Source of the DNA: Fibrobacter sp.
GTDB lineage: Bacteria > Fibrobacterota > Fibrobacteria > Fibrobacterales > Fibrobacteraceae
Assembly: GCA_017959225.1 (NCBI GenBank)
Contig: JAGDBD010000071.1
Location: 1 to 43,067, forward strand
Length of the DNA stretch: 43,067 bases
Direction: 5' to 3'
The position numbers were made by a program, and so were the translations under genes. Below, piece after piece: positions 15,161 to 21,853 of the stretch (the stretch's first letter is position 1; every line of letters begins with the position of its first letter). The notes beneath the pieces were generated by a model. It ran no database searches, was not told the DNA's origin, and worked only from the letters and a program-made list of their open reading frames with translations.

Positions 15161-15625
15161 ATGCGTCTTTCTGAACGATTTGCAGATAATAGCGTGATCA
15201 TCAACGCAAAAGGTTCGACCAAGGAAGAAATCCTGAACGAACTCGTGGACACGCTTTGCGCTTCTTACAAGCTCGAACATCGCGACGAAATCTTCGATGC
15301 TGTCTGGAAGCGTGAACAGACTCGCTCTACAGGTATTGGTTGTGGTTTGGCTGTCCCGCATGCAAAGATCGACTATGTGGATCGTATGTGCATGGTGGCG
15401 GCGACGGTAGAAAAGGGTATCGACTTTGAAGCCATGGACAACGAACCGGTTCACCTGCTCATTTTGATCGTGAGCCCGGGCAATACGGTCGGTCCGCACC
15501 TGAAGGCTCTTTCGTCGGTCAGCCGGATTCTTGCCAATGCGGAAGTCCGCAAAGACTTGATCGATTCCCAGAATCAGGTGGATTTCCTCGACATTTTGGG
15601 CAAAGCCGAAGACAAGTATCTGTAA
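15161..15625 (+). CDS. PTS fructose/PTS-Ntr-type EIIA protein
   Basis: 154 aa, a single EIIA (PTS_EIIA_2) domain. The phosphorylatable histidine is His67 in GLAVPHAKID, preceded by KREQTRSTGIGCG, both hallmarks of the fructose/PtsN class. FEAMDNEPVHLLILIVSPG and LKALSSVSRILAN complete the fold. With no EIIB/C permease beside it, the likely role is regulatory (PtsN-like phosphorelay) rather than sugar uptake, though a soluble IIA for a distant transporter is possible. AAGGAAA at 15150-15156 is a good ribosome-binding site 4 nt before the ATG. It is followed by its own terminator and then tRNA-Val, so it appears monocistronic. Confidence 0.88.
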   Translation: MRLSERFADNSVIINAKGSTKEEILNELVDTLCASYKLEHRDEIFDAVWKREQTRSTGIGCGLAVPHAKIDYVDRMCMVAATVEKGIDFEAMDNEPVHLLILIVSPGNTVGPHLKALSSVSRILANAEVRKDLIDSQNQVDFLDILGKAEDKYL

Positions 15626-15648
15626 AAATCACTCTTAACGAGATTTGA

Positions 15649-15680
15649 GCCTTGACGCAAAGTCAAGGCTTTTATATTTT
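15649..15680 (+). terminator. Intrinsic terminator of the PTS IIA gene, overlapping a possible tRNA promoter
   Basis: An 8-bp perfect stem (15649-15656 with 15662-15669, loop GCAAA) is followed by TTTTATATTTTT. The same stretch contains TTGACG (15652-15657) and TATATT (15673-15678), 15 bp apart, which could be promoter elements for the tRNA starting at 15692. Confidence 0.85.
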
Positions 15681-15691
15681 TGCGGTGCTTT

Positions 15692-15766
15692 GGACGATTA
15701 GCTCAGTTGGTTTAGAGCGCTGCTTTCACACGGCAGAGGTCACAAGTTCAAATCTTGTATCGTCCA
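15692..15766 (+). tRNA. tRNA-Val(CAC)
   Basis: A complete 75-nt cloverleaf: acceptor GGACGAT (15692-15698) pairs with ATCGTCC (15759-15765), discriminator A15766. The D arm is GCTC/GAGC, the anticodon stem CTGCT/GGCAG with one G-U pair, and the anticodon CAC is at 15727-15729, reading GUG. The T arm is ACAAG-TTCAAAT-CTTGT. The 3' CCA is not encoded (CTT follows), so it must be added by CCA transferase. Confidence 0.97.
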
Positions 15767-15771
15767 CTTCA

Positions 15772-15805
15772 AGAGATTCGGTTTTCCACCGAGTCTCTTT
15801 TTTTT
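15772..15805 (+). terminator. Terminator of tRNA-Val
   Basis: A 10-bp stem with one wobble pair (15772-15781 with 15789-15798) and a 7-nt loop is followed by seven T. It lies 5 nt after the mature tRNA end. Confidence 0.93.
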
Positions 15806-15809
15806 CTTA

Positions 15810-15821
15810 TATATTATCTGT
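15810..15821 (+). promoter_or_regulatory. TATATT promoter box of the LRAT operon
   Basis: TATATT (15810-15815) lies 6 nt upstream of the ATG at 15822 and immediately downstream of the tRNA terminator. No ribosome-binding site fits in the remaining bases, so a leaderless transcript starting at or near the ATG is inferred. Confidence 0.5.
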
Positions 15822-16691
15822 ATGAGCAAATTGATAGACGAATCCAAAATTCCGGAACCACCTGTGGGTTCTCATCTGCTTTCTCCCCGTGCAGGGTTTA
15901 ACCACCACGGAATCTACATCGGCAACGGTCGTGTGATTCACTATTCGGGGATGGCTCGCACTTTAACGCACAAAGACATTGCGCGGCTTCCGGGCCTTAT
16001 CCGCTACGGTTGCGTGGTCAAAACCTCCATTAAGCGTTTTTGCGACGGTCACGGATTTCGGGTGGTGGAACATCCCCATGCGAAGTTTACCGGTGAAGCT
16101 GTGGTGGAACGTGCCAAAAAGCGCTTGTATGAACGTTCTTACTATTTATACAGCAACAATTGCGAACATTTTGCTAATTGGTGCATCGATGACAAGTTTA
16201 AAAGCCCGGCTGTGACCCGTATTTTGGTGGGTTTCGCTGCTATTGGTTTTTTGGTCCATGCCCTCGGCATTTCAAAGCTCACACGTCGGATGCCGATGTG
16301 GGCCCGCGTTCTTTTGAGCGGCATAACGGCTTCGATCGGTTCGTTCATTGTGACGCACTTTACGCTGGACGCTTTGCAGCCTGCGGAAGGCATTCGTGGT
16401 CGTGAACGTCGTAACCGTTATTTCGGGCGTATTGGCGCCCGTTGCGGTTTTGCTTTGGCTCCGATTTTTGCCATTATGGGCATCCGCAAAGATTCAAAAC
16501 TTTCGGAAAGCCTTTTCCCGTTCTTTTTGCCAGTGATCGGAGGACTCGGAACTTATGGAGTCTTCCGCTTAAAGGATACCTTGGATCGGGATCAGCTTCG
16601 AAAGGAGCGCCGCCGCAAAGAAGAACTGGATGCCATGCGCATTGCGGAATCTGCTGAAGAATCTTCTGACATTGAAGAAATTTCACCGTGA
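15822..16691 (+). CDS. LRAT/NC-domain (NlpC/P60-fold) membrane protein
   Basis: 289 aa. The N-terminal half is a circularly permuted papain-like LRAT domain: GSHLLSPRAGFNHHGIYIG (16-34) with His28/29, VIHYSG with a second His, and YLYSNNCEHFANWCID with catalytic Cys114 (NCEHFANWC is the family signature). The C-terminal half has hydrophobic segments near 131-146, 160-180, 210-224 and 235-249, ending in a charged coil (KERRRKEELDAMRIAE). Eukaryotic LRAT-family enzymes are phospholipid acyltransferases or phospholipases; bacterial substrates are mostly unknown. The next gene (TolC) begins within its stop codon (GTGA at 16688-16691), so it is translationally coupled to an efflux system and may supply or modify a lipid-like substrate; this is inference. 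No signal peptide is seen, which suggests a cytosolic catalytic face. Confidence 0.82.
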   Translation: MSKLIDESKIPEPPVGSHLLSPRAGFNHHGIYIGNGRVIHYSGMARTLTHKDIARLPGLIRYGCVVKTSIKRFCDGHGFRVVEHPHAKFTGEAVVERAKKRLYERSYYLYSNNCEHFANWCIDDKFKSPAVTRILVGFAAIGFLVHALGISKLTRRMPMWARVLLSGITASIGSFIVTHFTLDALQPAEGIRGRERRNRYFGRIGARCGFALAPIFAIMGIRKDSKLSESLFPFFLPVIGGLGTYGVFRLKDTLDRDQLRKERRRKEELDAMRIAESAEESSDIEEISP

Positions 16692-18037
16692 TTTGGCCGT
16701 TCACGCAACGATTTGCCCAGTATAAGCATCTCATTCAAGTGAATTTACGATACGAGATGCTTTTTTTGTGTGCCTTTTTAACGGGCACCGGGTTTGCGGA
16801 AAGGGCGCTTTCTTTGGAAGATTGTGTAAAGCTTGCCCGTGAACAGAGCCTGGACATGGAATCCGCAAGGCTTTCGGAACGGGCTTCGGAAGCTTCGTTG
16901 CAGTCGTCCAAAGCGGCCGGTCGACCGACGGTTTCGGCCTATGTCAAGAACACTCTTTACGATTCTCCCTTTGACGGTCAAAGCCAGGACCATTACCGCT
17001 TTAGCATGGGACTTTCCGGATCATATACGATTTGGGATGGCGGTTCAACGAGCATTAACGTGGAAAGTAAACAGCTTTCTTTGGAAGCGAGCAAGTACAA
17101 TACGGAACTCGCAGCGTTGAACGTGCAAGAAAGTGCCATGAATGCTTTTGTAAACGTTCTTGCGGCGCAGGAATCTTTAGAAACGGCGGATTCGGCGCTG
17201 GTGCTTTCGGATTCCCTGGTGAGTTACAACGAGCGCCTGTTTGATGCGGGCTCCATTACGCGAAGCGATTTGGCTCTTGTTAAAAGCGATGCGGCAAGTT
17301 CAAAAGTGAAGCAGATTTCGGCGGCTCAGACGGAACGTTCCGCCAAAACGACTTTGCGTCAAACTTTGGAATTGTCCCGTTCGGATTCGTTAAAACTGAT
17401 CGCTCCCCAGGCCAATTACGAGAAGCCTTCGGACATGGGGACTCTTCCGAGCTTTGAAGAAGTCCTTGTAGAAACCAGAGCGCATTATCCGGGATTCATT
17501 TCGGATAGCTTAAAAGTCCAGGCGGCAGCCAAAGATGTGGAAGTCGCCGGCAAGAACAGTTCCATTTCGGTGACTCTTGGGGCGGAAGCTTCTACTGGTT
17601 TCCAAGCTTGGGAATCGGATCGTTATGCGCGTCAAATGAAGAATGGTTATACCCACAGCATTTCGTTAGGCATCAACATTCCGATTATCGACGGTGGAGC
17701 GACTACGGCAAAAGTGCTTTCTGCCCAGGTAGAAAGTGAACGGGCCAAAGTTTCCCAACGTGAAACCGGCAAAACTTTAGAAAATAATCTGGAACAGCTT
17801 TATATGCAGGCGGAAAGCGCCGATGCCAGCTGGATCGCAGCCATTGCAGGGCTTGAAAGTGCTGAAGAAGCTTACCGTGTGGCTGTGGAACAACGGGCGG
17901 CCGGTTCGATTTCTTTTACGGACTTTTTAGAACAAAAGAATAAATTGCAAAGTGCAAAAAGTACACTGACCCAGGCCAAGTACACGAGCATTCTCGCTCG
18001 GAGTCTTTTGGACCTTTACATGGGGAGGTTCCAATGA
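16688..18037 (+). CDS. TolC-family outer-membrane efflux protein
   Basis: 449 aa. After a hydrophobic signal region (LRYEMLFLCAFLTGTGFA) come two OEP-type repeats of long amphipathic helices: ALSLEDCVKLAREQSLDMES starting near 41, and a second copy starting near 255 (FEEVLVETRAHYPGF). It forms the trimeric beta-barrel/helical tunnel for type I secretion or tripartite efflux. Two starts are possible: GTG 16688, overlapping the LRAT stop, or ATG 16757, which gives a shorter and more typical signal peptide. GTG 16688 is kept because of coupling geometry. Its stop overlaps the adaptor start (ATGA at 18034-18037). Likely partner: the HlyD/MacA protein that follows. Confidence 0.87.
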   Translation: MIWPFTQRFAQYKHLIQVNLRYEMLFLCAFLTGTGFAERALSLEDCVKLAREQSLDMESARLSERASEASLQSSKAAGRPTVSAYVKNTLYDSPFDGQSQDHYRFSMGLSGSYTIWDGGSTSINVESKQLSLEASKYNTELAALNVQESAMNAFVNVLAAQESLETADSALVLSDSLVSYNERLFDAGSITRSDLALVKSDAASSKVKQISAAQTERSAKTTLRQTLELSRSDSLKLIAPQANYEKPSDMGTLPSFEEVLVETRAHYPGFISDSLKVQAAAKDVEVAGKNSSISVTLGAEASTGFQAWESDRYARQMKNGYTHSISLGINIPIIDGGATTAKVLSAQVESERAKVSQRETGKTLENNLEQLYMQAESADASWIAAIAGLESAEEAYRVAVEQRAAGSISFTDFLEQKNKLQSAKSTLTQAKYTSILARSLLDLYMGRFQ

Positions 18038-19326
18038 AAAAAATCGTGAAAATTTTGATTGTTTGTGTTCTCCTTGGCGCCATCGTTTTGGCTGTTCACA
18101 AATTCTTTTTTGCCTCCCAGACCGAAGATGTGGGTGTGATGGTCAGTGAAAAAGTAAAGCGGGTAACCATCCAGACGACGATTTCTTCGACAGGAACGAT
18201 TTCTCCGATGGATACGGTGAGCGTGGGTACTCAGGTCTCTGGAGATATCAGCAAGATTTATGTGGACTTTAATTCCAAAGTGAAGAAAGGCCAAGTGATT
18301 GCGGAACTCGACCGTTCCAAATTGCAGGCGACGCTTTTCCAAGCTGAAATTTCGGAATCCAGCGCAAAGAACGATTACGAACACAAGCTTTCCGTTTATA
18401 ACCGTGTAAAAAAGCTTGCAGAAACCAATAGCGCAAGCCCTGTGGATTTGGAAACCGCTGAATATGAAATGACTGCGGCAAAGCTTTCGTGGGAATCTCG
18501 AAAGAGCGAAGTGCAACAGGCCAAGCTGAACTTAAGCTATTGCATTATCAAAAGCCCGATCGACGGCGTGGTTTTGGAACGCTCCGTGGACGTTGGGCAA
18601 ACGGTAGCCGCTTCCATGAGTGCTCCGACGCTTTTTGTGCTGGCTAAGGATCTTGCCAAAATGCGTGTGATGGCAGATGTGGATGAAGCGGACATTGGAC
18701 AGGTAAAGGCCGGTCAGAAGGTGACGTTTACCGTGGACGCCTTTCAGGACGACACGTTCAGCGGAACGGTGGAATCGGTGCGTTTGAATCCCACGGTGAC
18801 TTCAAACGTGGTAACTTATACGGTGGTGATTACTGCCGACAATTCGGATTTAAAACTTTTGCCGGGTATGACTGCCACGTGTACGATCGTAACGGAAGAA
18901 GTGGAAGATGCGTTGAGCGTTCCGGTGACAGCGATCAAGTTTACACCGGCTGCAGGCACTCCTATGATGGATCCGCGAGAAATGCCGCATCCGGGCAAAG
19001 CGCTAAAAAAGCCTTCGGATAGCGGTGACGATTTTGGTCCGCCGCCGGGCATGATGGGCGGTCCTATGGGCAGCGGAGCTGCTAAAAAAAGTTCCTCTTC
19101 GACGCCGAAGCTCGTTGGAAAGGGCGTTTGGGTAAATATGAATGGAAAGGCTGCTTTCCGCCCGGTGAAAACAGGCATCAACGACGGCGTGAACGTGCAG
19201 ATTACAATGGGCCTTTCCGAAGGAGACTCTGTGGTGGTGCGTCAAGAATCTTTGACAGCTGCAGCGCAAAGTTCACCTGATGCAGTAAGCCCGTTTATGC
19301 CCGGTCCACGTAAAAAGAAAAAGTGA
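18034..19326 (+). CDS. MacA/HlyD-family periplasmic adaptor subunit
   Basis: 430 aa. An N-terminal anchor helix (residues 4-24) is followed by a barrel-sandwich half motif (TVSVGTQVSGDISKIYVDFN, KVKKGQVIAELD, 66-97), a coiled-coil hairpin (about 98-170), the second lipoyl half (YCIIKSPIDGVVLERSVDVG), then beta-barrel and membrane-proximal domains (DEADIGQVKAGQKVTFTVDA, LLPGMTATCTIV). This is the MacA layout. Unusually, a Pro/Gly/Met-rich insertion (about 313-350: GPPPGMMGGPMG and SSSS) interrupts the membrane-proximal domain, and the tail is basic (PGPRKKKK). It couples an inner-membrane pump to TolC, but no MacB or RND pump follows; the next gene is on the opposite strand. Confidence 0.88.
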   Translation: MKKIVKILIVCVLLGAIVLAVHKFFFASQTEDVGVMVSEKVKRVTIQTTISSTGTISPMDTVSVGTQVSGDISKIYVDFNSKVKKGQVIAELDRSKLQATLFQAEISESSAKNDYEHKLSVYNRVKKLAETNSASPVDLETAEYEMTAAKLSWESRKSEVQQAKLNLSYCIIKSPIDGVVLERSVDVGQTVAASMSAPTLFVLAKDLAKMRVMADVDEADIGQVKAGQKVTFTVDAFQDDTFSGTVESVRLNPTVTSNVVTYTVVITADNSDLKLLPGMTATCTIVTEEVEDALSVPVTAIKFTPAAGTPMMDPREMPHPGKALKKPSDSGDDFGPPPGMMGGPMGSGAAKKSSSSTPKLVGKGVWVNMNGKAAFRPVKTGINDGVNVQITMGLSEGDSVVVRQESLTAAAQSSPDAVSPFMPGPRKKKK

Positions 19327-19328
19327 TT

Positions 19329-20084
19329 TTATTTCACAATACCGACTTCGCTGATTTTGGCGAAGCCGTTTATTTTTTCGCCTAAACGGACGTGAACCCA
19401 GCCGTCTTTCACATTGAGCACTTCGATTTCTGTGCCTTCGGAAAGCATGTTCAAGGTCTGGTCTTTATCGCTTGGACCGCTGGTAATGTCGGCGGTTTCT
19501 GCAATGACGACTCCCAAGGAATAAGTATTTTCCCTGTAAATTTTATAGCCGACGCTGCAGGCGAAAACCCCAAGGACCATGGCGACGGGGAAAACGCATA
19601 CGGCAAGAGCCGTTTTGATTTTGGGGTTTGCGGAAAGTACTCGGGCGATGCAAAGGAAGAAAATCACCCAAACGAGCCCGAGAATGATTGCAAGCTGTTG
19701 CTTGAGAGAAAACAGGTGGTGAGCTTCAAAAGCAAAGTTCAGAATGGGATTTTCTTCGTCTTCGGATTCGGAAACTTTGTCTTTGGTCATGCTGCGGGCG
19801 AACTTGAGATTGTAACGGTAATCGCTGTTCGTCGGATCAAAACGGAGCGCCTTTTCGTAGTTCAAAATGGCAAGCCCTAAGCGCTTTTCGCGGAAGTAGG
19901 CATTGCCCAAATTGTAAAACAGATCGCCGTTCTGGAATCCGTTGTCAACGCAATTTTGCCAAGCCTCTGCTGCCGAAGTAAAGTCTCCGGCGGTATAAGC
20001 GGCTGCACCGGTAAATAGGGTTTTGCAATTTTCTGCAAAGAGGGATGCGCTTAAAAGTGCGATACAAAAAAGGAACTTTTTCAT
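19329..20084 (-). CDS. batE: BatE-like TPR and SH3 membrane protein
   Basis: 251 aa from ATG 20084, chosen for the GGAGG site 8 nt upstream and the signal peptide MKKFLFCIALLSASLFA. Two TPR units (about 22-90: GDFTSAAEAWQNCVDNGFQN, LFYNLGNAYFREKRLGLAIL, YEKALRFDPTNSDYRYNLKF) precede two membrane helices (about 123-140 and 151-172) and a C-terminal bacterial SH3-like domain (ADITSGPSDKDQTLNMLSEG, EVLNVKDGWVHVRLGEKING). This is the BatE arrangement of Bacteroidota and spirochaete aerotolerance (bat) operons. Its start overlaps the BatD stop (ATGA at 20081-20084). It is probably membrane-bound with periplasmic TPRs, acting with BatD in envelope stress or oxygen tolerance; the mechanism is not established. 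Confidence 0.85.
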   Translation of the reverse strand: MKKFLFCIALLSASLFAENCKTLFTGAAAYTAGDFTSAAEAWQNCVDNGFQNGDLFYNLGNAYFREKRLGLAILNYEKALRFDPTNSDYRYNLKFARSMTKDKVSESEDEENPILNFAFEAHHLFSLKQQLAIILGLVWVIFFLCIARVLSANPKIKTALAVCVFPVAMVLGVFACSVGYKIYRENTYSLGVVIAETADITSGPSDKDQTLNMLSEGTEIEVLNVKDGWVHVRLGEKINGFAKISEVGIVK

Positions 20085-21853
20085 TTTAAAACCTCCAATG
20101 CGTCGCAAAGGTTTTCAAATTCTTGCAGCGCCTTGGCGCGTTCTTCGGCAGTGGCGTCTACCGGTGCAAATCTAGCGAAGGCGCAGGCTTCTTGCCACTG
20201 TAAAACTTTTTGAATGTTCTCTTCGGAAACGCCTAAGTCTGTCAGGTTCTGCAAAACCTGATTCTTGGTCATGCCGCGGAATTCCCGGTTCGAAAGGTCG
20301 GAAAGGTAACCGATAAGACCGTTTTCGAGGGCGGCGTAAAATGCCTTGCCATCATTTTTTTGAAGGGCGGATTTTGCCGCTGCCGTGTACTGTTTTAAGT
20401 TTTTCTTGGCTTTGGCTTTTCGAACGAGTGCCGCATTGCTTGAATGTTTGCGGTGGGAACGGACGAATGCGCAGAAGATGGCGTACAGTGGAATCGGAAG
20501 GCAAAGGAGAATCCAGAAGGGAGCGGACTTGTACAGGGGAATTTCCAAAGCTTTGACTTCGGAAATGGAATGCATGTAGCGGATGTCTCGGCCCAAATCT
20601 TCAATTTCTTCTTTGGCAGGTGCTGTAAAATTCGGAGTGCTTTGCGTGTAAGCGGTAGCAGAAGCTTCGCCTTTTTCTACGACGATTTTCCACGGGCCTT
20701 CGGTTTTTGTTTCATACTTCTTTTTGGAAGGGTTGAACCAGTTATAAGTGATTTCTGGAATTTCAAATTCGCCCTTCTTTTTGGGGTAAAGGAAAAGACG
20801 GATGTTCTTTGTGGTGATGACTTTGCCGCCGGAAACTTTCTTTTTGAGTTCTGTTTCAGGAGGAACGGATCGGAAGTCCGAGAAGCTTGGAAGTACTGGG
20901 TCTGTAATCGTTCCCGGTTTTCCGTCACCCGAAATTTGAATGGAAAGTGTGAGAGCGTCGCCGAGAGTCAAAGAGTCTTTGTCGAAAGAAGCTTTGAAGT
21001 TATAAGTTCCGACCATGCCGGTGAAATCTTTGGGCTTGTTTTGGGACGGCAACGGAAGAACGGTAATGTTGACAGGTGCGGTTTTCGCTTCGGCTTCTTC
21101 CGGCTCTTGCTGGATGCTTTTGAAGCTCATGGAGAATCCGCCATGGGATTGATTCTTTTCCACCACTTTGGGCTTTCCGACTTTCATGTATTTGAACTTG
21201 AATGCAGGAATCGAAACGGAACCCGCTTTAAGCGGAGAAAGCCAGGCGAATTTTGCACTGCCTTGAGTTTCTCTCGGTGCATCCGGAATGGGGGAAAGCT
21301 TTAATTCGGAAAGGTCTGAACGGTGAGCGATGAAATCGTTTCCGATGTCCATGCTGGTTGCGGAAAGGCTTCCTTGGAAATGTTCAAAGGTGTGGATGGA
21401 AAGCGATACGGAAAGCTGCTCGCCTTCGTAAACGGTTTTCTTGCTGGGGGTAAGCGATACGTTTACAGCGGCATCGTCATACGATTTTTGAACGTCTACA
21501 GCGGGGCGAGAAATTTCATATTCCTGACCGGATACTTTCCAGGTGATGATACCGGCGATGCGCCGTCCGGTTTTTGCGGGAGCGGTTAGCTTAAAACTGT
21601 ACTGGCGAATCGGATAGCCTCTACCGAAGAAATCTTCGATTCGCGTATCGGTCGAATCCATGCCTCGCAAAGTAAATCCATTTTGCGGAACGAACTTGGG
21701 AACATCTCGCACATCGGCGAGTTCACGGAGGGGAACGTTCAAACGAATGTCAAAATTTGCACCCGCTTCGATGCGGTCGGTGCTATAGTCTAAAGTGATG
21801 CGCGCCTGCGCAAAAACAGCACCTAAAAGAACAAAAAAGAGAAAGCGTTTCAT
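20081..21853 (-). CDS. batD: BatD-family protein (oxygen-tolerance)
   Basis: 590 aa from ATG 21853 (MKRFLFFVLLGAVFAQARIT, a clear signal peptide). An upstream in-frame extension to 22045 overlaps the divergent ABC gene and is rejected. The periplasmic part has repeated Ig-like beta domains typical of BatD: RIEAGANFDIRLNV, TVYEGEQLSVSLSIHTFEHF, FTGMVGTYNFKASFDKDSLT (about 310), LGDALTLSIQISGDGKPGT. One membrane helix follows (about 467-486, FWILLCLPIPLYAIFCAFV), then a cytosolic helical tail (ALQKNDGKAFYAALENGLIG). BatD with BatE normally sits beside moxR, batA and batB; those are not next to this pair, so either the operon is split or only D/E are encoded here. TATCTTTT ends 7 nt before the ATG. 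Confidence 0.87.
   Translation of the reverse strand: MKRFLFFVLLGAVFAQARITLDYSTDRIEAGANFDIRLNVPLRELADVRDVPKFVPQNGFTLRGMDSTDTRIEDFFGRGYPIRQYSFKLTAPAKTGRRIAGIITWKVSGQEYEISRPAVDVQKSYDDAAVNVSLTPSKKTVYEGEQLSVSLSIHTFEHFQGSLSATSMDIGNDFIAHRSDLSELKLSPIPDAPRETQGSAKFAWLSPLKAGSVSIPAFKFKYMKVGKPKVVEKNQSHGGFSMSFKSIQQEPEEAEAKTAPVNITVLPLPSQNKPKDFTGMVGTYNFKASFDKDSLTLGDALTLSIQISGDGKPGTITDPVLPSFSDFRSVPPETELKKKVSGGKVITTKNIRLFLYPKKKGEFEIPEITYNWFNPSKKKYETKTEGPWKIVVEKGEASATAYTQSTPNFTAPAKEEIEDLGRDIRYMHSISEVKALEIPLYKSAPFWILLCLPIPLYAIFCAFVRSHRKHSSNAALVRKAKAKKNLKQYTAAAKSALQKNDGKAFYAALENGLIGYLSDLSNREFRGMTKNQVLQNLTDLGVSEENIQKVLQWQEACAFARFAPVDATAEERAKALQEFENLCDALEVLK

Follow-up and report, generated by a model that had tools for sequence, protein, structure and literature searches.

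The window, a stretch of 43,067 nt that is contig C61 of the Fibrobacter genome G000, carries a gene for an LRAT-domain membrane protein directly upstream of genes for a TolC-family outer-membrane factor (OMF) and a MacA-like periplasmic adaptor. The first-pass annotation of this stretch had taken the three genes for an atypical export device. That device appears to reduce to the TolC and MacA-like parts of a standard MacB-type tripartite exporter (type VII, ATP-binding cassette or ABC) whose genes are dispersed, together with an accessory lipid enzyme. The ancestral gene order was most likely TolC-MacA-ATPase-permease, and in the genus of the window (labelled g1; sister genus g2) the ATPase/permease pair would have been relocated, in G000 to contig C106, such that the remaining TolC-MacA half only appears to be pump-less. 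That the LRAT protein serves this split exporter, tailoring a lipid or the cargo for it, is the explanation we favour, at about even confidence.

An exporter with its probable pump genes elsewhere

The identities first proposed for the three genes were borne out by their Pfam and TIGRFAM scores. The channel scored 169.3 bits with Pfam OEP (PF02321, cut-off 22) and fell below the cut-off of the type I secretion TolC subfamily TIGR01844 (140.9 vs 225.15). The adaptor has a HlyD_D23 domain and scored 192.4 with TIGR01730 (cut-off 94.9). The MacA equivalog NF008606 was its best-scoring named equivalog, yet at 135.5 it stayed below the cut-off of 342, and the DevB model TIGR02971 gave 73.7 vs 129. 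The best solved structural relatives of the adaptor are MacA chains. Channel and adaptor frames overlap at an ATGA (18034-18037), in agreement with the earlier description.

The absence of a MacB or RND (resistance-nodulation-division) pump, also claimed by the first-pass annotation, is true of the cluster alone: elsewhere in the genome an orthologous ATPase/permease pair occupies positions 3-1519 of C106, the permease being cut by the contig end. This permease is 73–83% identical to the one found directly after MacA in G012, G014 and G020. In G014 the gene order is LRAT-TolC-MacA-ATPase-permease, the order in G012 is identical, and G020 has TolC-MacA-ATPase-permease on a contig that begins inside TolC. 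An ABC_tran domain was recognized in the ATPase and MacB_PCD/FtsX in the permease, the FtsX half being seen in G014, as the C106 copy is cut. On C106 and in G014 the ATPase and permease are separate frames rather than a single-chain MacB; an ABC ATPase and a MacB_PCD/FtsX permease linked to a MacA-like adaptor nevertheless place the set in type VII in its broad sense. The MacB in a separate operon that had been envisaged earlier was thus found, at a separate locus.

MacB operons including an adaptor occur in G012, G014, G020, G017, G008, G022 and in outgroups, and not within g1. In the single-contig genome G002 the permease lies about 130 kb from TolC-MacA, and no adaptor gene was found beside the relocated pump pair in G002 and G005 (g1 loci listed in full) or in G009. 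By hand count, a MacA (match E up to 1e-30) and a MacB permease (E up to 1e-20) were both present in 50 of 60 genomes, with neither in six and one alone in four, and MacB genes adjoin MacA in 17 of the 43 MacA loci read. As these 17 include outgroups, dispersal of the pump genes is probably the derived state. Beside the relocated pair of G002 (L203:1592-6769) are two 457-residue frames with identical first 70 residues and near-duplicate small genes; these resemble mobile-element copies and may have driven the rearrangement.

The window genome has three other adaptor loci, on C79, C85 and C91, each near a separate channel gene on the same contig. Because these adaptors have channels of their own, the adaptor and channel of C61 form a natural set with the pump of C106, and we infer that the C106 pair is the partner of the C61 MacA-TolC. 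Two near-full-length RND matches are also present in the genome, and a single TolC-type channel can work with a range of pumps, as HgdD does in Anabaena according to excerpts of PMC8277102. TolC-MacA could accordingly serve several pumps, with the MacB pair as one partner and the LRAT protein adjusting inner-membrane lipids for assembly of these machines. The adaptors on C91, C79 and C85 need not borrow the window TolC, since OMF genes of their own adjoin them, and such sharing is considered quite improbable. On C79 (14773-19155; also G004:C101), matches to an RND pump and an OMF fall in one 1468-residue frame, which suggests a pump-channel fusion.

The inner-membrane part had been thought to be either the LRAT protein itself or a separate pump, and of these the separate pump was found, as the MacB pair of G012, G014, G020 and C106. 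Four predicted membrane helices in the LRAT protein and a cluster without a pump gene would suit the first choice, but the MacB pair completes the operon alongside LRAT in G012 and G014, and g2 genomes hold the exporter genes without LRAT. Pfam searches detected no ATPase or transporter domain in the LRAT protein, and its confident structure matches are to the PLAAT catalytic domain only. Since an orthologous MacB pair exists, directly after MacA in two LRAT-bearing relatives, LRAT is not needed as a pump; that role was rejected, and an inner-membrane component made of LRAT with TolC and MacA is given very little credence.

The Pro/Met-rich insertion that had been noticed in the adaptor is present (59 residues, 6 Met, 11 Pro), but its proposed tie to an LRAT-containing device is lost. 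Among 19 aligned adaptors, loop length was independent of LRAT, the loop being short despite LRAT in G012, G009 and G007 and long without LRAT in three g2 adaptors (G033, G006, G029), and the loop was rejected as a signature of the device.

The LRAT protein

The LRAT protein scored 81.7 bits with PF04970 (cut-off 24.3), is the only match to this family in the 2.43-Mb assembly, and was matched to human HRASLS2 by phmmer (E 6e-8). It has the permuted His...Cys active site and the NCEHF motif of the LRAT family. His28, His40 and Cys114 are invariant in all 12 Fibrobacteraceae proteins, one of which is truncated N-terminally by a contig end, and in all 14 sequences after addition of proteobacterial and cyanobacterial LRAT proteins. 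Cys121, seven residues past Cys114, is invariant among the 12 and nearly so among the 14; a second Cys seven residues after the nucleophile is a known LRAT feature, according to excerpts of PMC3142127. The AlphaFold model had a mean predicted local distance difference test score (pLDDT) of 73.5, with the catalytic core mostly at 73–96 apart from a weak stretch at residues 40–60. Foldseek matched this model to human PLAAT3 and HRASLS2/3 (E 7e-5 to 3e-4), so that a PLAAT-like fold is predicted. The gene is under purifying selection, the ratio of nonsynonymous to synonymous substitution rates (dN/dS) being 0.05–0.08 vs three congeners, similar to TolC and MacA; in one additional comparison dS was undefined, and in another, at 3.5, it was saturated.

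The several membrane segments of the earlier description are four in number, all C-terminal to the LRAT domain, as predicted from hydropathy and from the AlphaFold model, whose helices cover residues 129–154, 159–184, 194–220 and 227–285 (membrane part pLDDT mostly 50–70). Hydropathy over the first 129 residues gave no hydrophobic peak. Basic residues number 20 in the N-terminal domain, 6 in the second loop and 10 in the tail, vs 3 and 3 in the other loops, and this charge pattern, together with the missing N-terminal peak, is consistent with a cytosolic catalytic domain. Because it has four C-terminal membrane helices and no signal peptide, the protein is expected to sit in the inner membrane facing the cytoplasm. 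A role as a known anti-phage gene was considered and dropped, as PADLOC gave no match for the window LRAT or for two plasmid LRATs.

As permuted NlpC/P60 relatives such as LnsA, Tox-Act1 and Lnb work on acyl chains, the protein is most likely a cytosol-facing phospholipid acylhydrolase/acyltransferase. As an accessory protein on the inner membrane with an intact His/His/Cys site, it would most likely form an acyl-thioester on its Cys with a fatty acyl chain from a membrane phospholipid, and this thioester would then be hydrolysed or passed to an amine or a hydroxyl, such that a lipid or an acylated cargo is made or tailored. We infer that this product would be handled by the neighbouring set and exported.

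The LRAT-TolC junction

In the first-pass annotation the LRAT gene overlapped TolC within a translationally coupled operon, and inspection of the junction puts both statements in doubt. The overlap depends on the longest TolC frame, which opens at GTG 16688. All five g1 genomes that carry the cluster share a second GTG, at 16739, and in each of them translation from it yields a signal peptide in which Lys/Arg precede the hydrophobic part. The N-terminal stretches are NLRYE in three genomes, and KSLRIRFLYFK or KRRIG in the remaining two. With this start the LRAT-TolC spacing is 47 nt, and the overlap is probably a start-codon artefact. Same-strand gaps in the 12 loci with the long form of LRAT are 11–61 nt in 11 and 723 nt in G007, several of the TolC starts behind these figures being alignment ends rather than tested starts.

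A hairpin followed by a T-run lies in the junction in four of the five g1 genomes, with fold z values of -3.2 in the window and -5.1, -2.4 and -3.6 in three congeners; it was not detected by fold or scan in the fifth, G001. Some other genera have weaker, scattered hairpins, none of the same shape at the start codon. A search of positions 15500-17000 against Rfam returned the tRNA alone, plus one sub-threshold chance match, and the junction hairpin fits no family; terminator-pattern matches are not enriched in the region as a whole (8 vs 6.2 expected). Because the conserved GTG leaves a 47-nt gap holding a terminator-like hairpin, with the two frames neither overlapping nor abutting, it is doubtful that LRAT and TolC are translationally coupled, although another route of coupling is conceivable. 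The hairpin (16724-16762) spans the predicted TolC GTG and resembles a terminator or attenuator placed within the gene start.

Distribution within and outside the phylum

An LRAT match was found in 14 of 60 relatives, the window genome included. Twelve of the proteins are of the long membrane form and two are short (G034, G035), the latter being encoded away from TolC and MacA. In a sample of the phylum, 17 of 167 genomes matched PF04970, 15 of them above the cut-off; the reading of neighbours covers these 15 other than G135. In all 12 long-form loci, from six genera, LRAT immediately precedes a TolC gene of the same orientation; MacA comes next in seven and a full MacB set in two. The co-occurrence expected with TolC and MacA therefore holds fully for the channel and only in part for the adaptor. 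PtsN precedes LRAT in nine of the 12, two of the other loci being at contig ends and the third, in G017, having none in 2.1 kb; tRNA-Val is present in nine. On the TolC tree (29 rows) the LRAT label requires three changes, two of them forced by well-supported branches. These fit one gain and two losses, the gene having probably been lost in g2 and again in G008/G022 within genus g4, and LRAT is accordingly an old, dispensable accessory gene of the PtsN-tRNA-Val-TolC block. The site between tRNA-Val and TolC (window 15692-15822; L145-L152) is LRAT-filled or empty across sister genera, a natural comparison with and without the gene.

A protein search of plasmid records gave LRAT relatives at 33 places in 30 records, and the 27 loci read (L118-L144) exclude three records and some second places. 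In two of the 27, both from Burkholderiaceae, LRAT adjoins an OMF, an adaptor and a major facilitator superfamily (MFS) pump. The order in Paraburkholderia PGU19 is LRAT-DHA2-OMF-HlyD, while in Burkholderia pyrrocinia (L118:4932-7040) a single frame of 702 residues encodes both LRAT and a NodT-type OMF, with HlyD and DHA2 after it. Among 71 matching plasmid records, that of B. pyrrocinia alone had one place covering most of this frame, and separate translation of its OMF from an inner start is possible. The two loci count as one lineage, since their LRATs are 60% identical. This LRAT-MFS linkage, seen in two records, is the best hint of an export link beyond mere synteny. LRAT/PLAAT enzymes might even be a recurrent lipid-loading subunit of trans-envelope exporters, separately arisen in Fibrobacteraceae (MacB-type) and Burkholderiaceae (EmrAB-type MFS), in which a cytosol-facing acyltransferase would make or prime an acylated lipid and the adjoining tripartite machine would move it through TolC; so general a role is judged unlikely.

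On plasmids of Acinetobacter towneri (L134:4983-6634) and Moraxella osloensis (L141:4980-6661), LRAT is directly upstream of an annotated prokaryotic viperin, which in A. towneri matches PADLOC pVip at 302 bits; LRAT is possibly an undescribed viperin partner. LRAT genes are also common on IMG/VR viral contigs (38 loci, L165-L202), and in one of these (L189:368-2677) LRAT is embedded centrally in an open frame of 770 residues.

Accessory enzyme or neighbour

Several observations weigh against the favoured explanation. Eight of nine g2 loci read PtsN-tRNA-Val-TolC with no LRAT match between the tRNA and the channel gene, and because g2 retains TolC, MacA and MacB without LRAT, the exporter does not need it. 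PtsN-tRNA-Val, on the other side of LRAT, is about as conserved as TolC. Adjacency alone does not show joint function, as that of LRAT and TolC is hardly better kept than that of LRAT and PtsN; it may be plain synteny, and the 12 of 12 count was weighed lightly as proof of function. The terminator-like hairpin separates LRAT from TolC. With the BLAST queries used, 25 of the 27 plasmid LRAT loci had no OMF or adaptor within about 5 kb (some carry an unrelated ABC ATPase match). Last, with three other adaptor loci in the genome, the assignment of the MacB partner is indirect.

LRAT could accordingly be a neighbour only, a lipid or membrane-defence enzyme in its own right whose gene arrived between tRNA-Val and TolC and was kept by vertical synteny with no export role. 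The PtsN-tRNA-Val-(LRAT)-TolC block that is stable with or without LRAT, the tree with its single gain and two losses, the junction hairpin, and LRAT genes that elsewhere mostly lack an efflux neighbour, are common on viral contigs and in two cases lie beside viperin genes would all agree with such a history. It accounts less well for G017, which keeps the LRAT-TolC pair although PtsN and the tRNA are outside the 2.1 kb upstream, for the short same-strand gaps in all loci but that of G007, and for the separate LRAT-efflux linkage in Burkholderiaceae. We regard it as a serious possibility, if a somewhat doubtful one, and retain as the preferred explanation an accessory lipid enzyme of a split MacB-type exporter.

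Comparison with known systems

The Fibrobacter set shares with MacAB-TolC of Escherichia coli a TolC-type channel, a MacA-like adaptor and a MacB_PCD/FtsX permease. It differs in having one gene each for ATPase and permease, on a different contig, in having LRAT at the front of the cluster, and in adaptor and channel scores under the cut-offs of the E. coli equivalogs. Excerpts of PMC8277102 and PMC6161253 describe DevBCA-HgdD of Anabaena as a MacB-type system in which ATPase (DevA) and permease (DevC) are two proteins and the gene for the TolC-like channel lies at another place, and in separate pump genes and a channel that is not beside them it resembles the Fibrobacter set. Lipids can be substrates of MacB-type exporters: DevBCA-HgdD carries heterocyst glycolipids out of the cell, and export of glycolipids and lipopeptides has been ascribed to MacAB-TolC (excerpts of PMC8277102). 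The Fibrobacter adaptor is, however, under the DevB cut-off, and these excerpts mention no LRAT gene for DevBCA-HgdD. The same excerpts of PMC8277102 describe YknWXYZ of Bacillus, in which a MacB-like transporter and an adaptor are joined by an extra protein with four transmembrane segments, YknW, required for assembly; a MacB-like set with an extra four-segment membrane protein is also what is seen here. YknWXYZ belongs to a Gram-positive host and has no TolC. YknW is not known to carry an LRAT domain.

With human PLAAT/HRASLS proteins and LRAT the Fibrobacter protein shares the permuted NlpC/P60 domain and the His/His/Cys residues; as in LRAT, another Cys follows seven positions after the first. 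Its four-helix tail contrasts with the single C-terminal anchor of PLAATs, and a 12-residue insert midway through the domain sets it apart from the proteobacterial forms. Other members of the permuted NlpC/P60 superfamily, with expected acyl chemistry, are LnsA, which has a part in lipoprotein N-acylation in Staphylococcus aureus and bears a signal peptide (excerpts of PMC7387801), Tox-Act1, a phospholipase acting in the periplasm, and DUF4105, the Bacteroides lipoprotein N-acyltransferase Lnb (both from excerpts of PMC12994826). Given the signal peptide of the first and the periplasmic action of the second, LnsA and Tox-Act1 act outside the cytoplasm, unlike what is expected of the Fibrobacter LRAT. 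Tox-Act1 and DUF4105 belong to clades other than LRAT (excerpts of PMC12994826), and none of the three proteins is described beside an exporter in the excerpts of PMC7387801 and PMC12994826. The literature searched, mostly without subscription papers and without bioRxiv, contained no paper with both LRAT and TolC as whole words and no report of a Fibrobacter LRAT-TolC-MacA cluster.

Features of the window

On the + strand the order is PtsN-like gene, tRNA-Val with its terminator-like hairpin, LRAT, TolC-family gene and MacA-like gene (Table 1). The cluster ends at a tetratricopeptide repeat (TPR) gene on the opposite strand, as had been stated for the next gene downstream.

Table 1 Features of the LRAT-TolC-MacA region, in window coordinates (PTS, phosphotransferase system).
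Feature	Position	Strand	Basis or remark
PtsN-like PTS EIIA gene	15161..15625	+	PF00359, 118 bits; upstream syntenic neighbour
tRNA-Val (cac)	15692..15767	+	ARAGORN; Rfam tRNA, 69 bits
Terminator-like hairpin, 12 pairs and T-run, between tRNA and LRAT gene	15771..15799	+	Pattern match
LRAT-domain membrane protein gene, 289 aa	15822..16691	+	PF04970, 81.7 bits; human HRASLS2 phmmer match
His28 codon, predicted catalytic His	15903..15905	+	Invariant; aligns to His of HRASLS2 motif AHWAIYVG
His40 codon, predicted second active-site His	15939..15941	+	Invariant in alignments
Cys114 codon, predicted nucleophile (NNCEHF)	16161..16163	+	Invariant in alignments
Four predicted membrane helices of LRAT protein, residues about 129–250	16206..16571	+	Hydropathy; AlphaFold
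Hairpin and T-run in LRAT-TolC junction, predicted GTG start inside	16724..16762	+	RNA fold z
TolC-family outer-membrane factor gene, re-assigned GTG start	16739..18037	+	PF02321, 169 bits; junction alignment, signal peptide
MacA-like periplasmic adaptor gene, 430 aa	18034..19326	+	TIGR01730, 192 bits; MacA chains are best solved relatives
Pro/Met-rich adaptor loop, residues about 302–360	18937..19113	+	59 residues
TPR protein gene of BatD-type locus, ends cluster	19329..20108	-	Gene calls, Pfam

Significance

What is new is the occurrence, in two phyla, of a PLAAT-type lipid enzyme beside trans-envelope export genes. Should LRAT be a neighbour only, the locus would be a warning case, in which one half of an ordinary exporter, parted from the rest by relocation, looked like a pump-less three-gene device. 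With LRAT in g1 and without it in g2, the same tRNA-channel block offers a natural pair that makes the question easy to test. If LRAT does feed the exporter, bacteria would couple PLAAT-type lipid chemistry to TolC export, the many unassigned LRAT genes of bacteria would gain a testable role, and a cargo for the MacB-type exporters of Fibrobacter would be suggested.

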